Source: a virus
DNA length: 26,132 bases
Virus record (IMG/VR): IMGVR_UViG_3300023178_000231
Location: 1-26,132 of that record
Strand: one strand, 5' to 3'
Below, one piece after another: positions 1,440 to 23,745 of this stretch (position 1 is its first letter; each line of letters opens with the position of its first letter). Under the pieces are notes generated by a model, which worked only from the letters and a program-made list of their open reading frames with translations, did not search any database and was not told the DNA's origin. The position numbers and the translations under genes are program-made.

Positions 1440-2103
1440 TGGCCCGCCCGGATCGGGCAAAGATGAAGCTGCGGCTTTCTTTGCCCGTACTTTTAATTTT
1501 GAACACGTCAGTTTTAAGAAGCAACTTTTTCTTGAAACGATTAAGCATTATAATGTAGATGAAGATTGGTTCATGAAAGGATACAACAATCGATCTCTGA
1601 AAGAACGTAAAGAAATCGAGTTAGGTGGTAAGTCTCGTCGAGAGGCAATGATCCATGTATCCGAAGATAACATTAAACCAAAGTATGGTAAAGACTATTT
1701 TGGTAGAAAGGTCGCTGAGCAAATCGACGGCAATAAAAATTACGCTATCTCTGATGGCGGATTCGTCGAAGAGCTCAAGCCTATTATTGATAAGGTAGGA
1801 ATTGGAAGTATAGTTATCGTTCAACTGACTCGAGCCGGTTGTAGCTTTTCTGGCGACTCAAGGCGTTACTTCAACGGGCGCTTTGATGAAGGCAAAGAAA
1901 TGATTATCAATTTCGAAACGGAGATTGAAGATGACTTTATTTTAGATATGCCCGCAGATATTCTTACGTATCGTATACATAATAATGGTACAATCACAGA
2001 TTTCTATCAATCTTTGATTAGTGTTGAGTTTCGTTTGAAGTGGCTTGACGGATTTTCAAAAGCTTTATTTAACCACCCAGTGAGAGGAAGTAAAATATTA
2101 TGA
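1423..2103 (+). CDS. P-loop kinase, deoxynucleoside monophosphate kinase-like
   Basis: The 226-residue protein opens with a strand and a clear Walker A loop, GPPGSGKD (residues 7-14). A conserved basic region follows (KSRREAMIHVSED, then KYGKDYFGRKVAEQI), which resembles phage deoxynucleoside monophosphate kinases such as T4 gp1. These enzymes phosphorylate dNMPs to feed phage DNA synthesis. It overlaps the RuvC-like gene by 17 bases upstream and the next gene by the ATGA arrangement, so it lies in a DNA-metabolism operon. The C-terminal half is divergent and I see no clear lid motif. A general nucleotide-binding protein is the alternative. Confidence 0.65.
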   Translation: MILIFNGPPGSGKDEAAAFFARTFNFEHVSFKKQLFLETIKHYNVDEDWFMKGYNNRSLKERKEIELGGKSRREAMIHVSEDNIKPKYGKDYFGRKVAEQIDGNKNYAISDGGFVEELKPIIDKVGIGSIVIVQLTRAGCSFSGDSRRYFNGRFDEGKEMIINFETEIEDDFILDMPADILTYRIHNNGTITDFYQSLISVEFRLKWLDGFSKALFNHPVRGSKIL

Positions 2104-2369
2104 CTTATGATGAAATCAAAAGCGTTCTTAAAGAAAAGGTATGCATTGTCGATTTCACTAAAATGAACGGTGAAAATCGATTGATGAAGTGTACTCTTAT
2201 CGAAGACCAACTACCACCTGCGCCTGTATCAGACGGCGATGGAACATTTACCCCTGCCGCTACGACTACTGCTGTGAATGAGCAAGTCTTAGCTGTGTGG
2301 GACCTACAAAACAACGGTTGGAGATCTTTCCGAGTTGACCGTGTAAATTCAATTATCCCTGTGGAGTAA
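2100..2369 (+). CDS. Small SH3-like protein, WYL_2/DUF2693-like
   Basis: An 89-residue protein that starts in an ATGA overlap with the upstream kinase gene. The C-terminal motif VWDLQNNGWRSFRVDRV and the earlier LMKCTL strand resemble the WYL_2 (formerly DUF2693) small beta-barrel family found in T4-like marine phages. Between them lies a low-complexity linker rich in Pro, Ala and Thr (residues about 55-60). The fold is related to Sm/SH3 barrels, so binding of nucleic acid or protein is possible. No biochemical role is known to me. Family assignment is from memory. Confidence 0.55.
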   Translation: MTYDEIKSVLKEKVCIVDFTKMNGENRLMKCTLIEDQLPPAPVSDGDGTFTPAATTTAVNEQVLAVWDLQNNGWRSFRVDRVNSIIPVE

Positions 2370-2372
2370 AAC

Positions 2373-3326
2373 ATGAGTGTGATTTACAGAGGCGAGGTTA
2401 TCGAAACCGAGCTTTCTAAAAATTCAAATGGTGGAACTGAAATGATGAGGCAGCGTCTTCTCGACAATGCCAATCCAGACTATTTGAAAGATGTTGCTAT
2501 TCATTTATCTCGTACTCGCGAGATGTATGAGGACGTTCCAAATATTCTTTGGTGCCACGATCTTGCAGAAGATCCCGAGAATCGTATTCTCGCCGATGGC
2601 GGCTGGCAAAAGTTTGATCGAATTATTTTCGTATCGGCTTGGCAACGAGATCAGTTTATCCTTCGCTATGGCATTCCGTATTCTCATTGTGCAGTCATTT
2701 GTAATGCTGTCGAAAAAGAATACAAGCCTCGCGAAAAAGAGCAAGATAAGATTCGCTTTATCTACCACACGACACCACATCGAGGTCTCGAGTTGTTAGT
2801 GCCTATTTTTGAAGCTCTTTGTACTGAGTTCGATAACTTGCATTTAGATGTTTACTCGTCGTTTAGCATTTACGGGTGGGAATCTCGTGATGAACCTTAT
2901 AAGGATACTTTCGCAGCAATCGAAGCTCATCCTAATATGACTTATCATGGTGCCGTTCCAAATGAAGAAGTACTCGAGGCGCTTGATAAAGCTCACGTGT
3001 TCCTTTATCCTAATGTATGGCGCGAGACGTCCTGTATTGCACTGATAGAAGCAATTAAGAGTCAGGTAATTTGTATCCATCCGAACTATGGTGCACTTCC
3101 AGAGACTTCTGCTAACGCTACAATTACGTATGACTTTAAGGATAACCTCAATGATCATGCAAACTATGCTTACTCTGTAGCAAAGCAATTAGTGCAAGTA
3201 ATGAACAACGATCCAAATTACTTTAACGGATTTACGTACTCAGATCGTTTTAACTTAGCTCGAAATAGTATTCAATCATTTAAGACGATGTGGGATGCCA
3301 CGCTCGCGAATGTATTGAACAGATAA
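2373..3326 (+). CDS. Glycosyltransferase family 4-like (GT-B fold)
   Basis: The 317-residue protein looks like a compact GT-B glycosyltransferase. The N-terminal half has the VSAWQRDQF segment typical of acceptor-side domains. The C-terminal half has the nucleotide-sugar region HRGLELL (136-142) and an EX7E motif with Glu218 and Glu226 in RETSCIALIEA. These residues bind the donor sugar in GT4 enzymes. It is shorter than most bacterial GT4 proteins, as is common in phages. The substrate could be modified phage DNA, a virion protein or host surface glycan; the sequence does not decide. It follows the WYL_2-like gene by three bases and looks cotranscribed. Confidence 0.75.
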   Translation: MSVIYRGEVIETELSKNSNGGTEMMRQRLLDNANPDYLKDVAIHLSRTREMYEDVPNILWCHDLAEDPENRILADGGWQKFDRIIFVSAWQRDQFILRYGIPYSHCAVICNAVEKEYKPREKEQDKIRFIYHTTPHRGLELLVPIFEALCTEFDNLHLDVYSSFSIYGWESRDEPYKDTFAAIEAHPNMTYHGAVPNEEVLEALDKAHVFLYPNVWRETSCIALIEAIKSQVICIHPNYGALPETSANATITYDFKDNLNDHANYAYSVAKQLVQVMNNDPNYFNGFTYSDRFNLARNSIQSFKTMWDATLANVLNR

Positions 3327-3338
3327 AGAGAATCATGA

Positions 3339-3686
3339 ATGAGCAACGAAAATGTTATTCAGTTCCCCAAGCTTCGACTCGATGGGCCGCCACAATCAAT
3401 GGAGGAAGTCCAGCAGCAATTGCGTGCTTATAAAGAAAGCTTTGCGAGTGATGTAGCAGACTTACTTTGGCAACATGTTATTAACGAGCTTGGGCGGGCT
3501 GGATGTAACTTCGACGAAGATATAGAAAAGTATTTTCCGTCGATGGTTCTCATTCTCGAAGCAATCAGATCCCTACACCTACAAACCAGCGGTATCGACC
3601 ATCCTCTTCAGCAATTTGCTGTCGAAAATATCACAATTGAAGATATGGAACAAAAAATGGTTGACATTGACGATGAAATAGATTAG
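3339..3686 (+). CDS. Conserved phage protein of unknown function (VIQFP N-terminus)
   Basis: A 115-residue acidic, mostly helical protein starting MSNENVIQFPK. The ATG at 3339 is preferred over an out-of-frame ATG at 3335. The VIQFP start and the acidic tail (VDIDDEID) resemble a small protein family I recall from marine T4-like phages, usually near replication genes. It has no membrane segment and no recognisable catalytic motif. It lies between the glycosyltransferase and RNase H genes. Function unknown. Confidence 0.65.
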   Translation: MSNENVIQFPKLRLDGPPQSMEEVQQQLRAYKESFASDVADLLWQHVINELGRAGCNFDEDIEKYFPSMVLILEAIRSLHLQTSGIDHPLQQFAVENITIEDMEQKMVDIDDEID

Positions 3687-3720
3687 AATAGGGCTTCAGA
3701 TTAAACAATGGTAATAAATT

Positions 3721-4575
3721 ATGGCTATCTTAGTAGATTACAACCAGGTGATGCTGGCGTCCCTCTTCGCCAGTATCGGTAACCACCACAACGTAGATCT
3801 TGACGAAAATCTCATTCGTCACATGTTCCTCAACTCACTTAGACTCAATCGTAAAAAGTTTACCGAAGAGTATGGTGAGATCATTATTTGTGCCGACAAT
3901 AAAAATGTATGGCGGCGAGATTACTACCCTTATTACAAAGCTAATCGTAAAAAGAATCGAGACGCTTCTGATCTCGATTGGAATGCTTTGTTCGAGTGCT
4001 TACATAAAATTAAGGCTGAGCTCGTCGAGTTCTTTCCCTATAAAGTAATCGACATTGAACGCTGTGAAGCTGACGACATTATTGGCACTATCATCCACGA
4101 AGAAGGAACTGAGCTCAATACCGGTTCAGAAAAATTCCTTGTCCTATCAGGCGACAAAGATTACATTCAGCTACATCGCTACGCTAATGTCGACCAATAC
4201 GATCCTGTCCGTAAACGGTGGATAAGAAACGACAATCCAGATAAATACTTATCTGAACACATTTTTAAGGGCGATGTCGGTGACGGCGTTCCAAACATTT
4301 TGTCAGCAGACAATTGTTTGGCCGTTGGTGAAAGACAAAAGCCAATGACCCAAAAGCGAATGAGCTTACTTAAAAATGGTGAAATGGATGAAGAAACACG
4401 ATTGCGGTATAATCGTAATAAGAAAATGATCGACCTTGCTGAGATTCCCGATGAGTATAAAACTCAAATCCTCGAGGAATACAGCAAAGAAGAACCAGTA
4501 GGTCGTGAGCTCTTGTTTAATTTCTTCATTAAGAAAAAGTTGAAGCATTTAATTACTGATATACAGGATTTTTAA
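3721..4575 (+). CDS. rnh: RNase H / 5'-3' exonuclease (T4 Rnh-like)
   Basis: The 284-residue protein belongs to the FEN/5'-3' exonuclease family and is close in length to T4 RNase H (305). Visible metal-binding acidic residues are Asp6 (ILVDYNQ), Asp59 (ICADNKNVWRRDYYPYYK, which includes the conserved Arg/Lys helical region), Glu116/Asp118/Asp119 (CEADDI), Asp145/Asp147 (LSGDKDY) and Asp185/Asp188 (KGDVGDGVPN). The last motif is the helix-hairpin-helix-type DNA-binding site. The enzyme removes RNA primers and flaps during lagging-strand synthesis. No strong Shine-Dalgarno precedes the ATG. The downstream gene starts two bases after the stop. High confidence. Confidence 0.93.
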   Translation: MAILVDYNQVMLASLFASIGNHHNVDLDENLIRHMFLNSLRLNRKKFTEEYGEIIICADNKNVWRRDYYPYYKANRKKNRDASDLDWNALFECLHKIKAELVEFFPYKVIDIERCEADDIIGTIIHEEGTELNTGSEKFLVLSGDKDYIQLHRYANVDQYDPVRKRWIRNDNPDKYLSEHIFKGDVGDGVPNILSADNCLAVGERQKPMTQKRMSLLKNGEMDEETRLRYNRNKKMIDLAEIPDEYKTQILEEYSKEEPVGRELLFNFFIKKKLKHLITDIQDF

Positions 4576-5252: not shown

Positions 5253-5837
5253 ATGACAAGTATAGCTGACAAGGTAATCCTTGTCGATTGTGATGGTGTT
5301 CTTCTCGATTGGGAATATGCTTTTGACCAGTGGATGAAGCGACACGGTTATCACAAAGAATTCGATCAGGTCTACGACATGTCTGTTTCATATAGTATGA
5401 AGCGAAAAGACATTAAGAGATTGATCCGAATGTTCAACGAAAGTGCTACCATACGAAAGCTACCTCCACTCCGAGATGCAATCAAGTACGTTCGTAAAAT
5501 TCATGAAGAAAAGGGAATCGTGTTTCACGCTATCACTTCTCTGAGTAACGATGAATACGCTCAACACTTGCGTACCAAAAACCTTTGTGAGTTGTTTGGC
5601 CCAACCACATTTGAGCGGTACGTTTACTTAGACACTGGTGCTGATAAAGATCAGGCATTGGCTGAATATAAAGATAGTGGCTGTTTGTGGATAGAAGATA
5701 AGATTGCCAACGCCGAAGTTGGGCTTGAGCTTGGTCTTCGTCCACTCCTCATGCGGCACGGTTTTAACGATAGTTATAGTAACGATGATATCCCTCTCAT
5801 TGACGATTGGGCTGACTTGTACTACAATTACGTATAA
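5253..5837 (+). CDS. HAD-superfamily phosphatase, 5'(3')-deoxyribonucleotidase-like
   Basis: The 194-residue protein shows all four HAD motifs. Motif I is DCDGVLLDW with Asp12 and Asp14, motif II is AITS (around Thr95/Ser96), motif III is Lys132 in GADKDQAL, and motif IV is WIEDK with Glu148/Asp149. The size and lack of a large cap fit the 5' nucleotidase/deoxyribonucleotidase-like HAD proteins seen in phages. The likely reaction is dephosphorylation of a nucleotide; the substrate is not shown. It is the only gene between an early promoter (5194) and a late promoter (5833) that overlaps its stop, so it is probably expressed alone and early. Confidence 0.75.
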   Translation: MTSIADKVILVDCDGVLLDWEYAFDQWMKRHGYHKEFDQVYDMSVSYSMKRKDIKRLIRMFNESATIRKLPPLRDAIKYVRKIHEEKGIVFHAITSLSNDEYAQHLRTKNLCELFGPTTFERYVYLDTGADKDQALAEYKDSGCLWIEDKIANAEVGLELGLRPLLMRHGFNDSYSNDDIPLIDDWADLYYNYV

Positions 5838-5860: not shown

Positions 5861-6112
5861 ATGCCAATTTATACATTTCGTGACAAAGAAACACAACAAA
5901 CCTTCGATAAGGTAATGCCTTACTCGCAGAAGGTTGAATTCCTCGAAGCAAATCCCCACCTCGAATCTATTATAACTTCAGCACCAAGTATAGGTGATTC
6001 GGTGCGTCTCGGGCTCAAAAAGCCCGATGATTCTTTTCGTGATGTCCTTAAAAACATTAAATCCCATCATCCGGGATCTAGAACAACAAAAAGCACAATT
6101 AATGACTTCTAA
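5861..6112 (+). CDS. Small phage protein with FmdB-like start but no cysteines
   Basis: An 83-residue protein beginning MPIYTFRDKETQQTF, which resembles the start of FmdB-type zinc ribbons (MPIYEY...). The zinc-binding cysteines of that family are absent. The rest (ANPHLES, GDSVRLGLKKPDDSFRDVL) looks like a family I recall beside phoH in marine T4-like phages. It is first in the run downstream of the late promoter at 5833 and lies nine bases before phoH. The RBS is GGAG, seven bases before the ATG. Function unknown; a degenerate zinc-ribbon fold is an inference. Confidence 0.65.
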   Translation: MPIYTFRDKETQQTFDKVMPYSQKVEFLEANPHLESIITSAPSIGDSVRLGLKKPDDSFRDVLKNIKSHHPGSRTTKSTINDF

Positions 6113-6887: not shown

Positions 6888-8639
6888 ATGAGTAATACTT
6901 CCATAGATTATGAAATAACGAATAAGAATGTGCATTATGTCGAAAGGGCGACGTTTCCAATCAAGCCCGATTTTGAATTTCCGGCAATCTATGGAAATGA
7001 AGATTATGAGCATGATGTTGAGTTCAATAGCGCGATGTTGCTTGCAAACTCTGTGGGTGGGTCCACTGCTTCTGCTAACGCATTTAACTTTGTTGTACAG
7101 AGCAGTGGTCCACCACTTAATCCCGACGCAGATATTAGAATTGACATAAGTCCAGGCGTGGGTGGTGGCTATGAAACAGCCGTTACCGATGTTGTTGCGT
7201 ATTGGGATGATTTTACTAATACAGATTTTGTCAATGGAGTCGCCAACACCTTTAGTGGTGCGGCAGGATTCTATGGTACAATTACTGTATATAATCACAA
7301 GATTCGATGGGAAAATGTGCAGTGGGCGAATTGGACTCAGCCATTTGATCTAGGATTTTTTAATGTTGGGCGTGGAAATCCGGGCAATAACTTTTGGGCG
7401 AATTATAACGCAAATACTTATCCAGAGCAAATCGTTGTCTATGCAGCGTATGGTGTAGCAAACAACACGTTTAACGCGTCATATCCTACGACTGAGCCAA
7501 ATACTGCACCTTACTTTGTACCGCCTCAGGCGAATAATACTGGGGGCTCAGCTAACACGTCATCTGGACCAGAAATTCTATATCCAGCTGGGCCAATCCT
7601 AGAGATGCAAATCATCAATGGATTTCCAGACCCGGCTTGGCAAAGTTATCTTCCAAATAATCATCCAGAGTCAGAAAGAATACTTGATTATGAATGGGAT
7701 TTTCCAACGAATCCGGCAAATACAGCGGATCAATCAACGTTTAATACGTATTATGATATTGCTCCCATTCCAGTGTGGCTCACTTCAACACCAAATCCGG
7801 CATGGTCGTTTAGTTTAGTCGATGGTCCAAGAAAAGATAGTAATGGAAACGCGATTACTGGTGAAGACGCTCTTCTCGAACTTTACGCGTATCGATACGC
7901 ATACAATTCAGATACATTTGATCCGGTTACTATAGGCGCTGTACATGATGATGGAAATACGTATAATTGGTACTTCGGTCCAAAAGTAATTATAGTTGAT
8001 CCCGGCAAAAATTATTCTGTCGGTGACACTTTTGACGTTGTCGTCGCCGATACTCAAAGGCAATCCCTCGGCTTACCTGCTGATATTAAAGCGAGAGCCG
8101 TAGTAACAAAAATCGATGCGCCAAGTGCTAATAGCGAAATTACAAATATCAGTGTTACTTCTTCACCATCGTGGGTTGATGTTTCTGTCGTAAACAATAA
8201 TACTATACGTGTTGTAAAAAATCAAGAAAAGATTTGGCCAGAAGAAAGATTCCTTTTTACTGGATACACCGGAGGGGAATTTACACCGAGTAATAAATAT
8301 CAGGCAAACATTGCTTTTGACGACGCAGCAACTTGGTATGCAAATGCTCCAGCCGAAGACGGAGTCTTTTTAGAAGAATGGCTTGTTCCATTTGAGCATA
8401 GGCCCGGCGGAGTACCAGAAAAGTCAACAGATTTGCCAGGTGTTGCAAACGATCTTGGACAATTTACTTTCCAATTTACGGTCGGTAATACAAATCCAAA
8501 TGCGTTTGATTATCCACCTCGGGTGTATGAAAAAACGTATGACCAATATTTCTATTGGTCAACTCGGCCTGGGCTCGAAGAAGTAGTTCAGAATGTAATA
8601 CCACCACAACCTACATCGAATACGGAGTATTCAACATGA
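6888..8639 (+). CDS. Probable virion structural protein (tail or baseplate), 583 residues
   Basis: A long protein rich in Asn, Thr, Gly, Pro and aromatic residues, with few Lys and almost no Cys, the composition of secreted or virion beta-structures. There is no signal peptide. A segment near residue 370 (VIIVDPGKNYSVGDTFDVVV) resembles the short beta repeats seen in phage fibre and spike proteins. Its stop overlaps the start of the PAAR spike-tip gene (ATGA), so the two are probably made together and late. A tail-spike-associated or baseplate-decorating role is inferred from this context. I do not recognise a named family. The RBS is weak. Confidence 0.6.
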   Translation: MSNTSIDYEITNKNVHYVERATFPIKPDFEFPAIYGNEDYEHDVEFNSAMLLANSVGGSTASANAFNFVVQSSGPPLNPDADIRIDISPGVGGGYETAVTDVVAYWDDFTNTDFVNGVANTFSGAAGFYGTITVYNHKIRWENVQWANWTQPFDLGFFNVGRGNPGNNFWANYNANTYPEQIVVYAAYGVANNTFNASYPTTEPNTAPYFVPPQANNTGGSANTSSGPEILYPAGPILEMQIINGFPDPAWQSYLPNNHPESERILDYEWDFPTNPANTADQSTFNTYYDIAPIPVWLTSTPNPAWSFSLVDGPRKDSNGNAITGEDALLELYAYRYAYNSDTFDPVTIGAVHDDGNTYNWYFGPKVIIVDPGKNYSVGDTFDVVVADTQRQSLGLPADIKARAVVTKIDAPSANSEITNISVTSSPSWVDVSVVNNNTIRVVKNQEKIWPEERFLFTGYTGGEFTPSNKYQANIAFDDAATWYANAPAEDGVFLEEWLVPFEHRPGGVPEKSTDLPGVANDLGQFTFQFTVGNTNPNAFDYPPRVYEKTYDQYFYWSTRPGLEEVVQNVIPPQPTSNTEYST

Positions 8640-8965
8640 CGATACCAGCAGCACGGGAAGGTGATTTAGTAGCAACAGGTACGCCAGCAGATCATGGTTG
8701 TACGCTTACTACTACGATTGAGTTTGGAATTCCAGAAGTTAAAATCAATAACATCAATGCTGCAGTATTTACATCACCGTTGAGATTTCATAAAATTAAG
8801 GTTGGATCGAGTTGTGCTCCGCATCCAGGCCAAATCGTTAATGAAGGATCGTCAAAAGTTTTTATTGCAGGTTTGCCCGCGGCACGTATCGGCGACGAGG
8901 TTGATACACCTGGAGGATCGGGCAGAGTTATTATGGGATCACCTACCGTTTTAATCGGAGGATAA
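8636..8965 (+). CDS. PAAR-repeat tail-spike tip protein (T4 gp5.4-like)
   Basis: A 109-residue protein with two PAAR motifs, PAAREGD at residues 4-10 and PAARIGDEV at 81-89, and Gly-rich beta strands between them. His20, Cys22, Cys60 and His63 are candidate zinc ligands at the tip. PAAR proteins cap the gp5-type puncturing needle of contractile tails and sharpen it for outer-membrane crossing. The start is taken at 8636, inside the stop of the upstream structural gene. An upstream in-frame start at 8555 (a GTG or TTG-type extension) is less likely because PAAR proteins begin close to the first motif. Confidence 0.9.
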   Translation: MTIPAAREGDLVATGTPADHGCTLTTTIEFGIPEVKINNINAAVFTSPLRFHKIKVGSSCAPHPGQIVNEGSSKVFIAGLPAARIGDEVDTPGGSGRVIMGSPTVLIGG

Positions 8966-12936: not shown

Positions 12937-12963
12937 TAAATACGTTACTAAAACAATAACTTG

Positions 12964-12987
12964 GGAGGCTCCGGCCTCCTTTTTTTT
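12964..12987 (+). terminator. Rho-independent terminator after the DUF932 unit
   Basis: A GC-rich stem GGAGGC/GCCTCC with a TCCG tetraloop (12964-12979) is followed by eight T residues (12980-12987). It separates the early DUF932 unit from the late exported-protein module. The best terminator in the window. Confidence 0.93.
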
Positions 12988-13009
12988 ATATTCCAAAAAG
13001 TAATTAATT

Positions 13010-13072: not shown

Positions 13073-13080
13073 TATAAATA
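13073..13080 (+). promoter_or_regulatory. T4-type late promoter octamer TATAAATA
   Basis: An exact TATAAATA 31 bases before the ATG of the first exported-protein gene. No sigma70 pair is present here. It is the second exact copy seen between genes, and the module behind it ends at the terminator at 17671-17740. Confidence 0.75.
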
Positions 13081-13111
13081 ACAGTGGTTAAATAATGGAT
13101 GTGAGAATAAA

Positions 13112-13699
13112 ATGAAACTGAATCTATTTTTGTTTACACTTTTGTTGATTGGTTTTTGCTCGAGCCCGTATGCTCAAGAAGAAGAGCCATTGCCAATCGA
13201 TGATGTGATAAGAACTGAATCTACAACAAACAGTACGATAACGACAAACGGGAATACGACAACGACATTGAAGTCACCACCCGCGAGTGCGATATCGCCA
13301 ACAATCAATACGTCAAATTCTGATTTATGTACGTTTGGCGTGGCTGGTGCAATTCAAACTCAGATTCTTGGTGTATCAACAGGTACCCAATTTACTGATG
13401 AAAATTGTGAAAGGCTAAAGAATGCTAAAACTCTTTATGATATGGGTATGAAGGTAGCAGCAGTATCGCTTATGTGCCAAGATAAAAGAGTGTTTGATGC
13501 GATGATGAATGCTGGTACACCATGTCCTTATGATGGATTGATTGGCCAAGAAGCAAGAGCTGCTTGGAAAGTAAACGCAGGAGAAGCTCCTCTTGAAGAA
13601 GGTGAAAAAGAGGAGAAGAAGGAGATGGACGTTGATCAAAAGACACTCATGGCCGCTGGCGGGGTTGCTTCTTTGTTGCTCTTGCTTGTCTTACTCTGA
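13112..13699 (+). CDS. Exported protein with Thr-rich linker and C-terminal hydrophobic tail
   Basis: A 195-residue protein. A signal peptide (MKLNLFLFTLLLIGFCSSPYA, cut before QEEE) leads into a Thr/Asn-rich linker (about 36-53) and KSPPASAISPTI. A cysteine-rich domain follows with Cys73, Cys99, Cys122 and Cys138 (the even number fits periplasmic disulfides). An acidic stretch (158-175) and a C-terminal hydrophobic segment (AAGGVASLLLLLVLL) end the protein. The layout suggests membrane anchoring at the C-terminus. I recall related proteins with the linker and NAKTLYDMGMK region in marine T4-likes, function unknown. First gene of the late module; overlaps the next in another frame. Confidence 0.75.
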   Translation: MKLNLFLFTLLLIGFCSSPYAQEEEPLPIDDVIRTESTTNSTITTNGNTTTTLKSPPASAISPTINTSNSDLCTFGVAGAIQTQILGVSTGTQFTDENCERLKNAKTLYDMGMKVAAVSLMCQDKRVFDAMMNAGTPCPYDGLIGQEARAAWKVNAGEAPLEEGEKEEKKEMDVDQKTLMAAGGVASLLLLLVLL

Positions 13700-14525
13700 G
13701 CAGGCTTCATCTCAGGTAGTATACGGAATTACGCAAAACGCAGCCAATCCTGGCATGAATTGGGTAATGACTAACGTATTGCCACAACAAGCAGGATTGA
13801 CTGTAGGTACTGTGATCTATCGATATACCGCAGTCAAAAATCCAGAAGATGATATGCTTGTACACGTACAAAATGAGGATGCTGAGAACGAAGGCCAATA
13901 TATCTTTAGAGAAACAGATGATTGGTCCGGTTTGCCCGGCAATTCGATACGAAAAGTTGTTTCGGTTGGTGGCATTCCTATCAATCGTTGGGGCGATGGT
14001 TCGATTGAAGTAGAAGGAGAAGGCAAGGTTGAAGATCCTACTGTTCTTTACACGTATCAGTATGATCCATGCTTCGATCCTCAGACTGATCCCAATTGCC
14101 CAGGCTATAAGCAGCCGTACGTAGAAGTAGAAGAACCTGAGCCTTACGATCCATTGTCAGAAGATTTTGTGCAGGACGAAATCGATAGAGAAATGACTTT
14201 AAGAGACGAAGATCAGGACGAAAAAGATCGCAAAAAAGTACAAACGAAAAAAGAGATTAAAGAAAATTTAGAAAAGATTTTGGGCACCGGCAATAATACT
14301 GATATTGCTACAGCCTCAAATCTACTTCATTCACAATTGACCATGCTCGACTATATGCCTACGAGTTATTATGAAACGATACCCGGAGGTGAGTACGTTG
14401 ACACGGTTCAATTAAAAGATTCCGAATTACCAGACAATGCTTCTGGTAGACGGGCCCAATTTGCGCAAGAACTACTTCATGAGAAAATCGTTGATTCACA
14501 ATATGAAAAGACAACAGAAAAGTAA
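13632..14525 (+). CDS. Exported protein with conserved beta domain and charged coiled coil
   Basis: From a TTG at 13632 the product is 297 residues with a clear signal peptide (IKRHSWPLAGLLLCCSCLSY, then SEQASS). GGAG at 13621-13624 is seven bases upstream. A TTG at 13593 with GGAGAAG upstream would add 13 very basic residues and cannot be excluded; neither is an ATG. The mature part has VVYGITQNAANPG, then the conserved-looking ETDDWSGLPGN and a CFDPQTDPNC pair. A charged stretch (EDQDEKDRKKVQTKKEIKEN) and a C-terminal helical part follow. I recall this domain order from cyanophages. It overlaps the previous gene by 68 bases. Function unknown. Confidence 0.7.
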   Translation: MIKRHSWPLAGLLLCCSCLSYSEQASSQVVYGITQNAANPGMNWVMTNVLPQQAGLTVGTVIYRYTAVKNPEDDMLVHVQNEDAENEGQYIFRETDDWSGLPGNSIRKVVSVGGIPINRWGDGSIEVEGEGKVEDPTVLYTYQYDPCFDPQTDPNCPGYKQPYVEVEEPEPYDPLSEDFVQDEIDREMTLRDEDQDEKDRKKVQTKKEIKENLEKILGTGNNTDIATASNLLHSQLTMLDYMPTSYYETIPGGEYVDTVQLKDSELPDNASGRRAQFAQELLHEKIVDSQYEKTTEK

Positions 14526-14543
14526 TAAAAAAAGGAGAACTTT

Positions 14544-15044
14544 ATGTTCAATAAAATCAGCGTAGCTATCTTAGCAGCTTTCACAGCAACAGCTGCTTTG
14601 GCAGAAGACGTTCAAATTACCGGTACCGTTGAGTCTAAGTGTCTCGTGGTAACTGACACCGTAGGTATCTACGGAAACCCTACACCGAACCTGCTTACGA
14701 CTGACGGAACAAACGGTGGCGTTAAGCCAGTTATTCGATATGATGTAATTATCGCTGACTACTACAAGGCAAGAATCACACACCCCATTTCGTTTTCTGA
14801 GAGTCCAACTCTGAGTGACGTAGTTACATGGGATGGTTCGACATCAGTTGCAGATTCTACTGATGCTAGCATGGCAGCTTATGACACTGACAAAATCGAG
14901 TACGACAACGTGACAGAAGTTGATCTGTCGATTGCCGGAAGCACTTGGTTCCAAGTTGAATCAGAAGCAGATTATGGATACGACAAGGCGTTCCCTGCTG
15001 GAACATATCGTACAATTGTACAAGCTGAGTGTATCGCTATTTAA
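14544..15044 (+). CDS. Exported pilin-like (spore coat U/fimbrial-type?) protein
   Basis: A 166-residue protein with a signal peptide (MFNKISVAILAAFTATAALA) cut before EDVQITG. The mature part is all-beta in appearance, with one cysteine near the start (Cys33) and one near the end (Cys163), which could pair. The VGIYGNPTPNLLTTDG segment loosely resembles the spore coat U/chaperone-usher pilin pattern, but I cannot confirm it. The RBS is strong (AGGAG). Acidic, few basic residues. It could be a virion or envelope protein; the pilin link is tentative. Confidence 0.7.
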   Translation: MFNKISVAILAAFTATAALAEDVQITGTVESKCLVVTDTVGIYGNPTPNLLTTDGTNGGVKPVIRYDVIIADYYKARITHPISFSESPTLSDVVTWDGSTSVADSTDASMAAYDTDKIEYDNVTEVDLSIAGSTWFQVESEADYGYDKAFPAGTYRTIVQAECIAI

Positions 15045-15056
15045 TATATAATACAG

Positions 15057-15434
15057 ATGAGAAGTTTTTTTGGTATTACGCTGTTGGTCTTGCTCTGTGG
15101 GTCTGTAAAGGCCCACGAGTTTACACCAACATATCCAAAATTAAAGCAATCGTTTGTACCGGGCGTTTTAGTCGCTGAGATGACTCTCTTTAACGGTAGA
15201 ACAGATGTTGAATATTTTGGATTAAACGTGTTTGATGGTGACTGGCAACCTCTACCTTTTGCTTCTGAGTCTGATGTTATAAGGCTGAAGTATTTAGATA
15301 GAAAAAAGTTGAACGTATATATTCGCGAAAAAGATAGAAATCGAGCGGTGTATATTTGTTCTAAGTCTAAATTAATTGGTGAGGGAAGTGGACTCACTAT
15401 GGTTGCAACGAGAATATGTTCTAAAATAAAATGA
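15057..15434 (+). CDS. Exported Ig-like (chaperone-like?) protein
   Basis: A 125-residue protein with signal peptide MRSFFGITLLVLLCGSVKA, cut before HEFT. The mature part is a beta-rich domain (VLVAEMTLFNGRTDVEYFGL, then FDGDWQPLPF and VYIREKDRNRAVYIC). Cys101 and Cys121 can pair. The N-terminal Ig-like pattern recalls the first domain of pilus chaperones, and the preceding gene looks pilin-like. This pairing is suggestive only. Conserved in marine T4-likes as I recall. RBS weak. It overlaps the next gene by four bases. Confidence 0.68.
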   Translation: MRSFFGITLLVLLCGSVKAHEFTPTYPKLKQSFVPGVLVAEMTLFNGRTDVEYFGLNVFDGDWQPLPFASESDVIRLKYLDRKKLNVYIREKDRNRAVYICSKSKLIGEGSGLTMVATRICSKIK

Positions 15435-15883
15435 CACGCATGAAATTTATATTATTCATTACATTATATTTCGTAATTGGTTTTTGGGCAGGCGCTGCTT
15501 ATGGTCAATCGAGTTCGATTAATATGGCCATTCCGCAAACGTCTCCCAACTTCCAAACTGATCGCATAAGAGCTGGTGATTTGGAATGCTCAATGGCGAT
15601 TGGTTCCTCTACTAACGTAGAATTTGGTGTTGTGGGAATTATGAATCAAGAAGATCCGCTGTACAATCTTTCGCAGCAAGATCCTTCTTTTCGTTATAAC
15701 AATGATCAATTTATACGTGATGTAGGTGTATACGGGAGAATCACAATTCCTCTTGGTGCACCAAAAGAAAGGCTCAATTGTAATGTTCTATATCAATTAG
15801 AGTTGGAAAAAAAGAGATTGGAAGTTATGAGACTTCAAGCCGAGATCGATAATCTGAGGGCGTTGAAGTTCGAGGAAAACTGA
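15431..15883 (+). CDS. Exported protein with C-terminal coiled coil
   Basis: A 150-residue protein beginning MTRMKFILFITLYFVIGFWA, a signal peptide cut near AYG/QSSS. The mature beta-like part carries Cys53 (LECSMAIG) and Cys117 (RLNCNVLY), then a short helix (QLELEKKRLEVMRLQAEIDN) that reads as a coiled coil. DVGVYGRITIPLGAPKERL is a likely conserved core. It starts in an ATGA overlap with the Ig-like gene. The coiled-coil end suggests oligomerisation. I recall the same fold order from cyanophages, unassigned. Confidence 0.68.
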   Translation: MTRMKFILFITLYFVIGFWAGAAYGQSSSINMAIPQTSPNFQTDRIRAGDLECSMAIGSSTNVEFGVVGIMNQEDPLYNLSQQDPSFRYNNDQFIRDVGVYGRITIPLGAPKERLNCNVLYQLELEKKRLEVMRLQAEIDNLRALKFEEN

Positions 15884-15898
15884 TAAGGGATTAACATC

Positions 15899-16369
15899 AT
15901 GGTTGAGATTGCAGCCGCGTTAAGCATGGCTGGGTCTGCATACAACATGATAAAAAATGGAATTGAAAAAGGGCAGGAAATCAATGACCTGTACCAAGGA
16001 TTTTCGAGATTTTTTGACGCGAAGGAAGAATTAGCAGAAGCAGCAATTGCAAATAGTAACCCGAGCTTAACGCAAAAATTATTTTCGGGTAAAAGTGTCG
16101 AAGCCCAGGCCTTAGAGGTTACTGCGGCTAGACATAAAATGATAGCTCTCGAAAAAGAGCTACGGGAGTTTCTGATCTACACCGGTCAGATGCCTTTCTA
16201 TGAGGATATGATGCGCGAGCGTAGAAAGATACGCCAGCAACGCCTCGAATTAGCAAAGAAAAAAGCAGAAAGTAGGCGATTTTGGACTGATGTAAGTTTA
16301 GTTGCCGGCTTTTTAGTATTTGCCGCTTGTGTCATCGGCGGTATGATTGCACTCATTGCAGGTGCATAA
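15899..16369 (+). CDS. Membrane-anchored helical protein
   Basis: A 156-residue protein with a short N-terminal helix (MVEIAAALSMAGSAYNMI), a charged helical body and a basic stretch (RRKIRQQRLELAKKKAESRR). A C-terminal transmembrane segment follows (VSLVAGFLVFAACVIGGMIA). It is not a signal-peptide protein, so it is probably a tail-anchored inner-membrane protein with a cytoplasmic body. AAGGGA lies nine bases before the ATG. Similar proteins occur with the preceding genes in marine T4-likes, as I recall. Confidence 0.65.
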   Translation: MVEIAAALSMAGSAYNMIKNGIEKGQEINDLYQGFSRFFDAKEELAEAAIANSNPSLTQKLFSGKSVEAQALEVTAARHKMIALEKELREFLIYTGQMPFYEDMMRERRKIRQQRLELAKKKAESRRFWTDVSLVAGFLVFAACVIGGMIALIAGA

Positions 16370-16370
16370 A

Positions 16371-16496
16371 ATGAAAATAGAAATCAATTCAATAGGTGAA
16401 AGACTATACACAGTTTACGATGAACGAGGAAACATTATTATAAGAACAACCAGCCTTAAGGCTGCAAAGGAAGCACAACAATGGCAAAAGACTTAG
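16371..16496 (+). CDS. Very small protein, 41 residues
   Basis: A 41-residue reading frame one base after the preceding stop, overlapping the next gene by 16 bases. It begins MKIEINSIGERLYTVYDERG and ends AKEAQQWQKT, a beta hairpin plus helix in appearance. Coupled spacing on both sides argues that it is real. No family known. Confidence 0.5.
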   Translation: MKIEINSIGERLYTVYDERGNIIIRTTSLKAAKEAQQWQKT

Positions 16497-17020
16497 GTGA
16501 AATGACTGAAAACTTCGAAGACGAAGTTGAAAACCTGAAGAACACTAAGATGAAATTGTTTGGCATTACTATGACTCCCACTACAATAGCTGGGGCTTTC
16601 GCAGTACTGAGTTCTATTCTTGCTGCGTTATATGGTGGATTTGAAACGTACAAAGCTTTTCAGGAAATGAGTGAAAAGTTAGAAGTGATGGATATTGAAG
16701 CAGTTGAAGCTCGTAACTTAGCAATTGAAACGAAGCTTAACGACGCTATCGACTACACAAGAGACATCAAAAATAGCTTAAGAGATGATATTATAAGAGT
16801 CGAACGTGTTGCCGAAAATGCAAGTAACAGAGTGAAGACTGTACAAGATGATATTGATCAAAGAATGAGGGAATTATCTGACTTAAGTAGGGAATCGGAA
16901 AAGGATGTCCGCGATACAATGCGAGAAACAGAGGATCGCATTGACGGTAAAATGGAGAAGTTAGATGAAGACCTTAGAGAAACGCTACAGAAAGCATTGG
17001 ATAATCCTTTGGGCAATTAG
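16481..17020 (+). CDS. Transmembrane protein with long periplasmic or cytoplasmic coiled coil
   Basis: A 179-residue protein. An N-terminal charged part (about 1-25) is followed by a transmembrane segment (TPTTIAGAFAVLSSILAALY, about 32-51). A long charged helix follows, with heptad-like spacing through RVERVAENASNRVKTVQDDI and later RDTMRETEDRIDGKMEKLDE. I recall this architecture in cyanophages next to the tail-anchored gene upstream. The role could be a scaffold linking membrane and a partner, or a holin-like protein. AAGGAAG lies before the ATG. Overlaps its neighbours on both sides. Confidence 0.65.
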   Translation: MAKDLGEMTENFEDEVENLKNTKMKLFGITMTPTTIAGAFAVLSSILAALYGGFETYKAFQEMSEKLEVMDIEAVEARNLAIETKLNDAIDYTRDIKNSLRDDIIRVERVAENASNRVKTVQDDIDQRMRELSDLSRESEKDVRDTMRETEDRIDGKMEKLDEDLRETLQKALDNPLGN

Positions 17021-17375
17021 CCTATGTTTTTTTACTACGCCAGTATACGCTGAGTTTAGACACTTTAACGATTGGACCAAAACAGAAAAGTCTCTTTTCC
17101 TCACGTATACTGCCGCATCATACATAGACCATAGACAAACTCGTGTAGGACTCCGCAATGGATACACCGAGGGTAACAAACTCATCTATGGTACCAACCC
17201 ACATCGAGATAAGTCGATCATCATAAATACAATAATCATTGCCGGTGTATACACTTTGATAGGAAAGCACGAGCCCGGTCAATTTGATACTGTTTTACTT
17301 GGTGGTAACATTGCAAGATGGGGAGCAGTAATTCATAACGATTCTATTGGAGTAAGTTGGAAGGTAGCATTTTAA
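16965..17375 (+). CDS. Exported or membrane protein, DUF5658-like
   Basis: A 136-residue protein overlapping the previous gene by 56 bases. GGAG at 16954-16957 is seven bases before the ATG and supports this start. A signal peptide or anchor (HWIILWAISLCFFTTPVYA) precedes EFRHF. The following TKTEKSLFLTYTAASYIDHR, NGYTEGNKLIYGTNPHRD and a hydrophobic stretch (IINTIIIAGVYTLIG) resemble small membrane proteins with an Asp-Gln-Thr and Glu-x-Asn-Pro pattern (DUF5658-like). That match is weak. Function unknown. Confidence 0.6.
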   Translation: MKTLEKRYRKHWIILWAISLCFFTTPVYAEFRHFNDWTKTEKSLFLTYTAASYIDHRQTRVGLRNGYTEGNKLIYGTNPHRDKSIIINTIIIAGVYTLIGKHEPGQFDTVLLGGNIARWGAVIHNDSIGVSWKVAF

Positions 17376-17376
17376 T

Positions 17377-17631
17377 ATGGAATTGTGGTATGCGATGAAG
17401 CCTATGATAGGCCAATACATTAATGAGTTGAGATTTAAAAATCATATCGAAGGCGAGAACGTATGGATAGACGGAGTTCTCGCTACATCACTGACTCAAG
17501 AAGTAAGCGATGGTGCCGCTGTCAAAATTGGTAATTGTATTTGGACCGTTCATGACTGGAGCAAATACGAGGAAAAGGATGATCCGGATACGGAACCCTG
17601 CCCGCACTGCGGAGGTACGGGCCGCTTATAA
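17377..17631 (+). CDS. Small protein ending in a CPHCGGTG zinc knuckle half-site
   Basis: An 84-residue protein. The first 65 residues (YINELRFKNHIEGENVW, then GNCIWTVHDWSKY) are of unknown type. The end, Cys75-Pro-His-Cys78-Gly-Gly-Thr-Gly-Arg-Leu, matches one half of the DnaJ-type CxxCxGxG zinc motif. A single half-site suggests that a dimer or partner completes the zinc site. It is the last gene of the late module; a terminator follows. Function unknown. Confidence 0.6.
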   Translation: MELWYAMKPMIGQYINELRFKNHIEGENVWIDGVLATSLTQEVSDGAAVKIGNCIWTVHDWSKYEEKDDPDTEPCPHCGGTGRL

Positions 17632-17663
17632 CTAAAAGTTCTATCCATATTACAAAAAAGTCT
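17632..17663 (+). repeat. Degenerate copy of the intergenic stem-loop element
   Basis: TCTATCCATATTACAAAAAAGTC aligns by eye with the stem-loop region at 10571-10597 and with 21329-21352 (shared ACAAAAAAGTCTAAAAAA). The outer stem pairing seen in the better copies is not intact here. It begins right after the stop of the CPHCGGTG gene. Confidence 0.4.
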
Positions 17664-17670
17664 AAAAAAT

Positions 17671-17740
17671 AAACCCTTATAAAACAATAGCTTATGTAGG
17701 TTATCTTCTAAGTTATTGATTTGTAAGGGTTTTTATTTTT
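17671..17740 (+). terminator. Rho-independent terminator after the exported-protein module
   Basis: A long two-part stem pairs AAACCCTTA with TAAGGGTTT (17671-17679/17724-17732) and CAATAGCTTA with TAAGTTATTG (17685-17694/17709-17718, one G-U pair), followed by TTATTTTT. It closes the late module. The upper stem is related to the hairpin at 10618-10652. Confidence 0.8.
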
Positions 17741-23367: not shown

Positions 23368-23745
23368 ATGGCTTACTCAGACAAGGTATTAGATCACTAT
23401 GAAAATCCCAGAAATGTCGGACGTCTTCCCGAAGATGACGAAAGTGTCGGAACAGGCATGGTCGGTGCTCCAGCGTGTGGAGACGTCATGCGGTTGCAAA
23501 TCCGAGTATCGGATGACGGAATTATTGAAGACGCTAAATTCAAAACTTACGGATGCGGCAGTGCTATTGCTTCTTCATCATTACTCACAGAGTGGGTTAG
23601 AGGAAAGTCCCTTGACGAAGCAGGAGAAATCAGCAATCGAGAAATTGCTGAAGAATTATGCCTCCCGCCTGTAAAGATTCATTGCTCGGTATTGGCTGAA
23701 GATGCAATCAAGGCAGCAATTAAGGATTACCAAGAAAAGCAATGA
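23368..23745 (+). CDS. iscU: IscU-like Fe-S cluster scaffold protein
   Basis: A 125-residue protein almost identical in layout to bacterial IscU (E. coli IscU is 128). It starts MAYSDKVLDHYENPRNVG and has every key residue: Cys37 and Asp39 in GAPACGD, Cys63 in KTYGCGSA, LPPVK at 99-103 (the HscA/HscB-binding motif), and His105/Cys106 in KIHCS. IscU builds [2Fe-2S] clusters with IscS and hands them to apoproteins. No iscS, iscA, hscA or hscB is visible here, so it would depend on host partners. The gene is coupled to its neighbours (a TAA-ATG junction before, an ATGA overlap after), which argues against assembly error. The ribosome site is weak. It was probably acquired from a proteobacterium. 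Confidence 0.93.
   Translation: MAYSDKVLDHYENPRNVGRLPEDDESVGTGMVGAPACGDVMRLQIRVSDDGIIEDAKFKTYGCGSAIASSSLLTEWVRGKSLDEAGEISNREIAEELCLPPVKIHCSVLAEDAIKAAIKDYQEKQ

Follow-up and report, generated by a model that had tools for sequence, protein, structure and literature searches.

What does a phage do with a run of exported, cysteine-paired proteins made late in infection? The question is raised by positions 13073–17740 of a 26 kb IMG/VR record (IMGVR_UViG_3300023178_000231; its whole 26,132-nt stretch is the window analysed here), which comes from a T4-related phage. An initial annotation had described in this segment a terminator-bounded run of ten genes (here P1–P6, P6b and P7–P9, all on the + strand) behind a late promoter at 13073, and had suggested an envelope complex. 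Six of these genes form a late operon of exported proteins, previously nameless and without function, whose full set is preserved in 150 or more distinct loci of marine viruses, and structure provides a first handle on it, a predicted pilin/chaperone-like core without an usher. Taken as a whole we read the cassette as encoding a pilin/chaperone-like complex that resides in the periplasm without an usher, is produced late and probably serves envelope remodelling or lysis, and put the chances of this complete reading at slightly under even.

Related loci were collected using P1, P2, P3, P4, P5 or P6 as anchors and then searched with profile hidden Markov models of P1–P5 and P7. Each anchor scan comprised the best 80 matches, so that the loci represent relatives down to roughly 30% identity; the true number of loci is larger than the counts given, those from the P1, P3, P4 and P5 scans being 'at least' values. 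The search returned 390 related loci (202 distinct), and in 148 of the 202 the genes lie on one strand in the exact order P1-P2-P3-P4-P5-P7, with P7 doubled in eight more. Where a gene is absent from a locus its place is always past the contig end, except in four cultured-phage loci, which are outgroups. Because the flanking genes change place and strand among loci, the cassette is the unit, and its six proteins are co-inherited. The ten-gene module of the initial annotation is thereby reduced: P1–P5 are conserved, but the core is P1–P5 with P7 only, while P6/P6b, P8 and P9 are accessory and lineage-specific; some relatives have P6 as an insertion between P5 and P7. That annotation had also held that independent occurrence of the genes in relatives would speak against a common system. 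In uncultured relatives they travel together, with the qualification that isolates carry sub-modules (pelagiphages have P1 either alone or together with P7, and Vibrio phages have P3-P4-P5); no sequenced cultured phage was found to have all six genes.

The cassette lies in a T4-type late transcription unit, with the late promoter TATAAATA at 13073–13080 (+ strand) upstream of P1. The motif occurs within 150 nt upstream of P1 in 80 of 176 distinct loci, compared with 1.9% for random background stretches, and before the other cassette genes in 0–3% of loci, a distribution that points to one late operon. In the window the motif is present in two + strand copies and in none on the − strand; the second copy, at 5833, stands just before an open reading frame (ORF) at 5861–6112. 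P2 (13632–14525) most likely starts at TTG 13632 behind AAGGAG, 68 nt within P1 (13112–13699). All 176 distinct loci analysed show such an overlap (median 68 nt), and the same DNA at 13632–13699 would therefore encode, in two frames, the membrane helix of P1 and the signal peptide of P2. Ribosome-binding sites are stronger for P3 and P2 than for P4 and P5, the mean longest match being 4.7 for P3 against 3.5 for P4 or P5.

P1–P5 are five exported-type proteins in a row, their signal peptides being called by eye from the sequences and not by a predictor. The mature cysteines (P1 C73/99/122/138; P2 C160/169; P3 C33/163; P4 C101/121; P5 C53/117) are conserved in 100% of 40 diverse homologues in each alignment, a degree of conservation and pairing far beyond chance; P7 has no cysteines. 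The same alignments reveal no conserved lipobox in P1–P5, with no cysteine kept near the signal-peptide ends, and a cysteine near the signal region of P2 occurs in only 20–25% of homologues. To this extent the initial annotation is borne out. The ORFs, the promoter and both terminators are confirmed, as are the five consecutive signal-peptide proteins with even cysteine numbers (4, 2, 2, 2, 2), and the proposed self-contained late envelope module with matched disulfide-type proteins is supported by synteny across the 202 distinct loci, the late promoter and the invariant cysteines. These export signals also bear on the view that the proteins are virion components or cargo assembled late. Such a role would suit the T4-type late promoter and the surroundings of a P3-P4-P5 triple in Vibrio phages, which adjoins large upstream genes and in phage BP15 has tail genes downstream. 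However, five of the proteins have cleavable-type signal peptides and invariant paired cysteines, which indicates the periplasm and not cytoplasmic virion assembly, and in a 146 kb contig some 36 kb separate the cassette from the baseplate/tail cluster; we consider virion cargo very improbable.

The nature of the complex is suggested by two adjacent genes. P4 (15057–15434) encodes 125 residues including the signal peptide, and its AlphaFold2 (AF2) model (predicted local distance difference test score, pLDDT, 92) is a single immunoglobulin (Ig)-type beta-sandwich. In Foldseek the chaperones SafB, FaeE and PapD take the first three places among Protein Data Bank (PDB) matches, and FimC, DraB, Caf1M and SfaE come next, interspersed with MSP-type PapD-like domains (E 3e-4 to 2e-3, TMq 0.5–0.64). 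By structure, P4 therefore matches the N-domain of PapD-like chaperones. Its two cysteines, C101 and C121, sit in the last two predicted strands (99–105 and 119–123); in FGL chaperones the defining disulfide joins the F1 and G1 strands (PMC4133393). A search of BFVD with the P4 model finds a protein of the right length in the jumbo phage Eowyn. Bacterial genomes scanned twice with P4 profiles, on the basis of short peptide patterns, yielded no cellular relatives.

P3 (14544–15044) is modelled (AF2, pLDDT 90) as a pilin-like Ig-fold subunit with a donor-strand-like N-terminus, EDVQITGTVESKC. Its first Foldseek matches are CfaB and the PapG pilin domain (E 8e-4), with CS17, FimF, CsuA/B and Caf1 lower down. 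Independently of structure, the P3 profile aligns with 18 E. coli K-12 pilins (hhalign, E 2.2e-5) over the donor-strand/first-cysteine segment, at DVQITGTVESKC, compared with DVTITVNGKVVAKPC in FimG. Distant pilin-like families of Vibrio and jumbo phages reach E 5.5e-5 and 3.7e-6 against pilins, in alignments that include the signal peptide. Since the other cassette profiles, used as controls, give E values from 6e-4 (P5) to 0.04 in the same comparison, the match of P3 to pilins is moderate evidence. The predicted models thus support a fold resemblance of P3 and P4 to pilin and chaperone, and we regard a pilin/PapD-like nature of the two as likely. An alternative is that they are unrelated small Ig-like periplasmic proteins whose resemblance is generic. 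Generic Ig and PapD folds do stand in the Foldseek lists, the TM-scores of P3 are ~0.4, and P5 as control comes to E 6e-4 against pilins. Two adjacent genes, however, independently indicate both partners of one pathway, the pilin-like N-terminus recurs in three divergent phage families, and the P4 cysteine pair, at what would be the F1-G1 position, is conserved, leaving a generic resemblance as the less probable explanation, at perhaps one chance in a few.

The remaining core proteins would be partners of this pair. P1 combines a signal peptide, a T/S/N-rich linker, a four-cysteine domain and a C-terminal hydrophobic helix that may serve as inner-membrane anchor. P2 is exported and has a beta-rich part with a CFDPQxDPxCPGY cysteine pair and a C-terminal helix; P5 (15431–15883) is an exported cysteine-pair protein with a C-terminal coiled-coil-like helix; and P7 (16481–17020), the sixth core gene, encodes an N-terminal transmembrane helix and a long periplasmic coiled coil ending in ALDNPL. 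P1 matches phrog_20531 (E 5e-17) and P5 matches phrog_37374 (E 5e-6), and the Vibrio relatives of P3, P4 and P5 are PHROG 25895, 25455 and 37374, respectively; none of these four families carried an assigned function before. None of the cassette proteins was assigned to a named family by Pfam or PHROG scans, profile searches of PDB sequences gave no match for P1–P5 or for the Vibrio P3 and P4, and tests for homology between P3 and P2, P3 and P4, and P2 and P5 found none. In phage Mosig an exported protein of 611 residues (2080–3915 of locus L003) is encoded directly after P1, with a beta-rich N-terminal part, a long acidic region and no family match; it was rejected as a P2 relative. The resemblance of HTVC115P gp53 is limited to a weak C-terminal motif.

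How such a complex could leave the periplasm was addressed in 26 long cassette contigs, all of them fragments or of unknown completeness. The usher (PF00577) was above cut-off in 0/26, with a positive E. coli control, and the CsgG pore (PF03783) likewise in 0/26; one usher match in contig G026 was below threshold (12.4 bits) with internal stops and was dismissed as chance. Both the curli and the usher hypotheses failed on these grounds, and export via a known pilus channel is unlikely. The cassette resembles the chaperone-usher pathway (FGL chaperones Caf1M, SafB and DraB; pilins CfaB, Caf1 and FimG) in the PapD-like N-domain fold of P4 and the location of its cysteines in the final two predicted strands, in the alternating hydrophobic N-terminus of P3 before the first cysteine, and in the adjacency of the two genes. 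It differs in lacking an usher, in a one-domain P4, in P3 cysteines in the first and last strands, in the extra partners P1, P2, P5 and P7, and in being phage-borne. Because there is no usher, the chaperone has one domain and the pilin cysteine layout is different, it is not a chaperone-usher system, although its mode of action may correspond to the first stage of that pathway. With the curli (type VIII) module, which pelagiphages carry and their hosts lack (PMC7029224, PMC9599517), it shares the character of a multi-gene envelope module of conserved order in marine phages; its folds are different and its contigs have no CsgG, so that it is not the phage curli module. This precedent nevertheless favours a surface fibre or adhesin, a pilin-type counterpart in which P3 would polymerise, exit by an unknown outer-membrane route, and aggregate cells or block superinfecting phages. 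The likeness of P3 and P4 to pilus subunit and chaperone fits, as does the stronger ribosome-binding site of P3, expected for a major subunit. Against a fibre stand the missing usher and CsgG, a cysteine layout unlike that of pilins, and expression that comes late for superinfection exclusion; we judge it unlikely. Of the four options raised initially (secretion, surface structure, lysis aid or virion cargo), the first two thus lose ground to a lysis or envelope role, which is favoured by gene neighbourhood only. Usher-less periplasmic assembly we consider about an even proposition.

That neighbourhood comes from cultured phages. In 50,697 phage records tblastn found no match to P2 or P3, and most P1 matches were to pelagiphages, the others being one roseophage and a few uncultured phages; the cyanophage relatives mentioned in the initial annotation were not recovered. 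A P3-like, P4-like and P5-like triple in cassette order is nevertheless present in T5-like Vibrio phages (Morian, Thalassa, Ceto) and in 58–83 kb Vibrio phages. The homology spans the whole proteins (hhalign, E 3.7e-11 for P3 and 1.6e-9 for P4), and the P3 cysteine layout is the same. P3-like, P4-like and P5-like proteins occur in 179, 179 and 194 records, the last including Klebsiella, Erwinia, Raoultella and Stenotrophomonas phages. The jumbo phages 2.275.O, D479 and Eowyn encode P4-like, P5-like and pilin-like proteins in different order. Among pelagiphages HTVC115P has P1 and P7, and in Mosig the neighbour of P1 bears a weak resemblance to P7; the marine cassette may therefore be made up of two sub-modules. 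Some 180 sequenced phages contain the P3-P4-P5 core, among them those of the Thalassa/Ceto type that infect Vibrio harveyi BAA-1116, and its presence side by side in cultured phages opens its function to bench testing. In the literature we found no paper on phage-encoded pilin/PapD systems and no proteomic study of virions for the Vibrio phages. A possible fourth partner of the triple in these phages is a small lipoprotein-like gene (..SGCTxNxxIDTDYASQ..) that overlaps the P5 end (L006:6269–6472, L417:5601–5786, L418:5658–5834).

Lysis genes lie near one or other half of the cassette in four isolates. Morian has a T-holin and an endolysin near the triple; 1.205.O has a holin-like gene, an M15 peptidase, a transmembrane protein and a lipoprotein; in Mosig a GTA_holin_3TM gene adjoins P1; and in D479 (L419:82–5190) the P4-P5-pilin-like triple comes after the lysis-inhibition genes rIIA and rIIB. 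Together with the predicted P1 and P7 anchors with periplasmic parts, and with a P1/P2 overlap that recalls nested spanin genes, this might indicate a new spanin-type lysis apparatus proper, a bridge between the inner and outer membranes that would fuse or rupture the latter. Like spanins and lysis cassettes, the operon encodes late periplasmic and membrane-anchored proteins in overlapping genes. However, it has six genes with pilin/chaperone-like folds and no conserved lipoprotein partner, P1–P5 lack a conserved lipobox, and 1.205.O has a separate transmembrane protein/lipoprotein pair after its endolysin. By the lipoprotein test on these sequences the cassette is not a two-component spanin, and a spanin-type apparatus of a new kind appears improbable.

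We favour a periplasmic envelope/lysis complex, since there is no known channel, usher-less oligomers are possible, P1 and P7 offer anchors and lysis genes are nearby. In this model the late, phage-specific operon would build a periplasmic protein complex. P4 would lend a strand to P3, capping or folding it, and P3 would form short donor-strand-linked oligomers that remain periplasmic because no usher is encoded; in the Dr system chaperone and pilin without usher suffice for linear donor-strand oligomers in the periplasm (PMC5625045). P1, by its C-terminal membrane helix, and P7, by its transmembrane helix and coiled coil, would hold the complex at the inner membrane, P2 and P5 serving as connectors, and at the end of infection the complex would remodel or weaken the envelope, or time its rupture. 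P3-P4 binding and polymerisation are steps we infer. A number of observations weigh against this model. First, a strand A-strand B disulfide is present in 90% of pilins (PMC5625045), but the P3 cysteines are in strand A and the last strand (C163), a placement that might block strand exchange. Second, the P3 TM-scores are low and non-pilin Ig-like folds also rank in Foldseek. Third, P4 has no second chaperone domain, its profile does not match K-12 chaperones significantly (hhalign, E 0.047), and PapD-like folds serve other jobs too, MSP and CEP192 being among its matches. Lastly, structure models cover P3 and P4 among the six core proteins, the lysis role is drawn from gene neighbourhood only, and in BP15 the triple precedes tail genes, not lysis genes. 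A lysis-related role is accordingly put forward tentatively, at somewhat less than even chances. The broader idea, that phages turned chaperone-usher donor-strand chemistry into a periplasmic machine that has no usher, is widespread among marine T4-like and Vibrio phages and acts on the envelope at the end of infection, is more speculative still.

The accessory genes and boundaries complete the operon. P6 (15899–16369) is a tail-anchored membrane protein whose family is also found in roseophages, Mosig and Limnohabitans phage DC31; in DC31 the gene sits three genes before an L-alanyl-D-glutamate peptidase (endolysin), and P6 is possibly a lysis-associated membrane protein. P6b (16371–16496) is a 41-residue ORF, P8 (~16965–17375, 18 loci) a small exported or membrane protein overlapping the P7 end, and P9 (17377–17631, two loci) a CPHCGGTG protein. 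An intrinsic terminator with a GC stem (GGGAGGC-TCCG-GCCTCC-T8) at 12963–12988 closes the upstream unit, and a long AT-rich hairpin (−27.1 kcal/mol, z −6.7) at 17665–17740 closes the operon, both on the + strand. Elsewhere the window encodes a T4 RNase H-like exonuclease, PhoH and a DUF932 protein. A SleB-type cell wall hydrolase with signal peptide (330–842; PF07486, E 1.7e-21), 12 kb upstream of the cassette, is probably the endolysin. A PAAR-motif protein (8597–8965, phrog_281) follows a 583-residue ORF (6888–8639) without any family match, and the gene at 23368–23745 encodes a NifU N-domain (iron-sulphur scaffold, E 9e-54).

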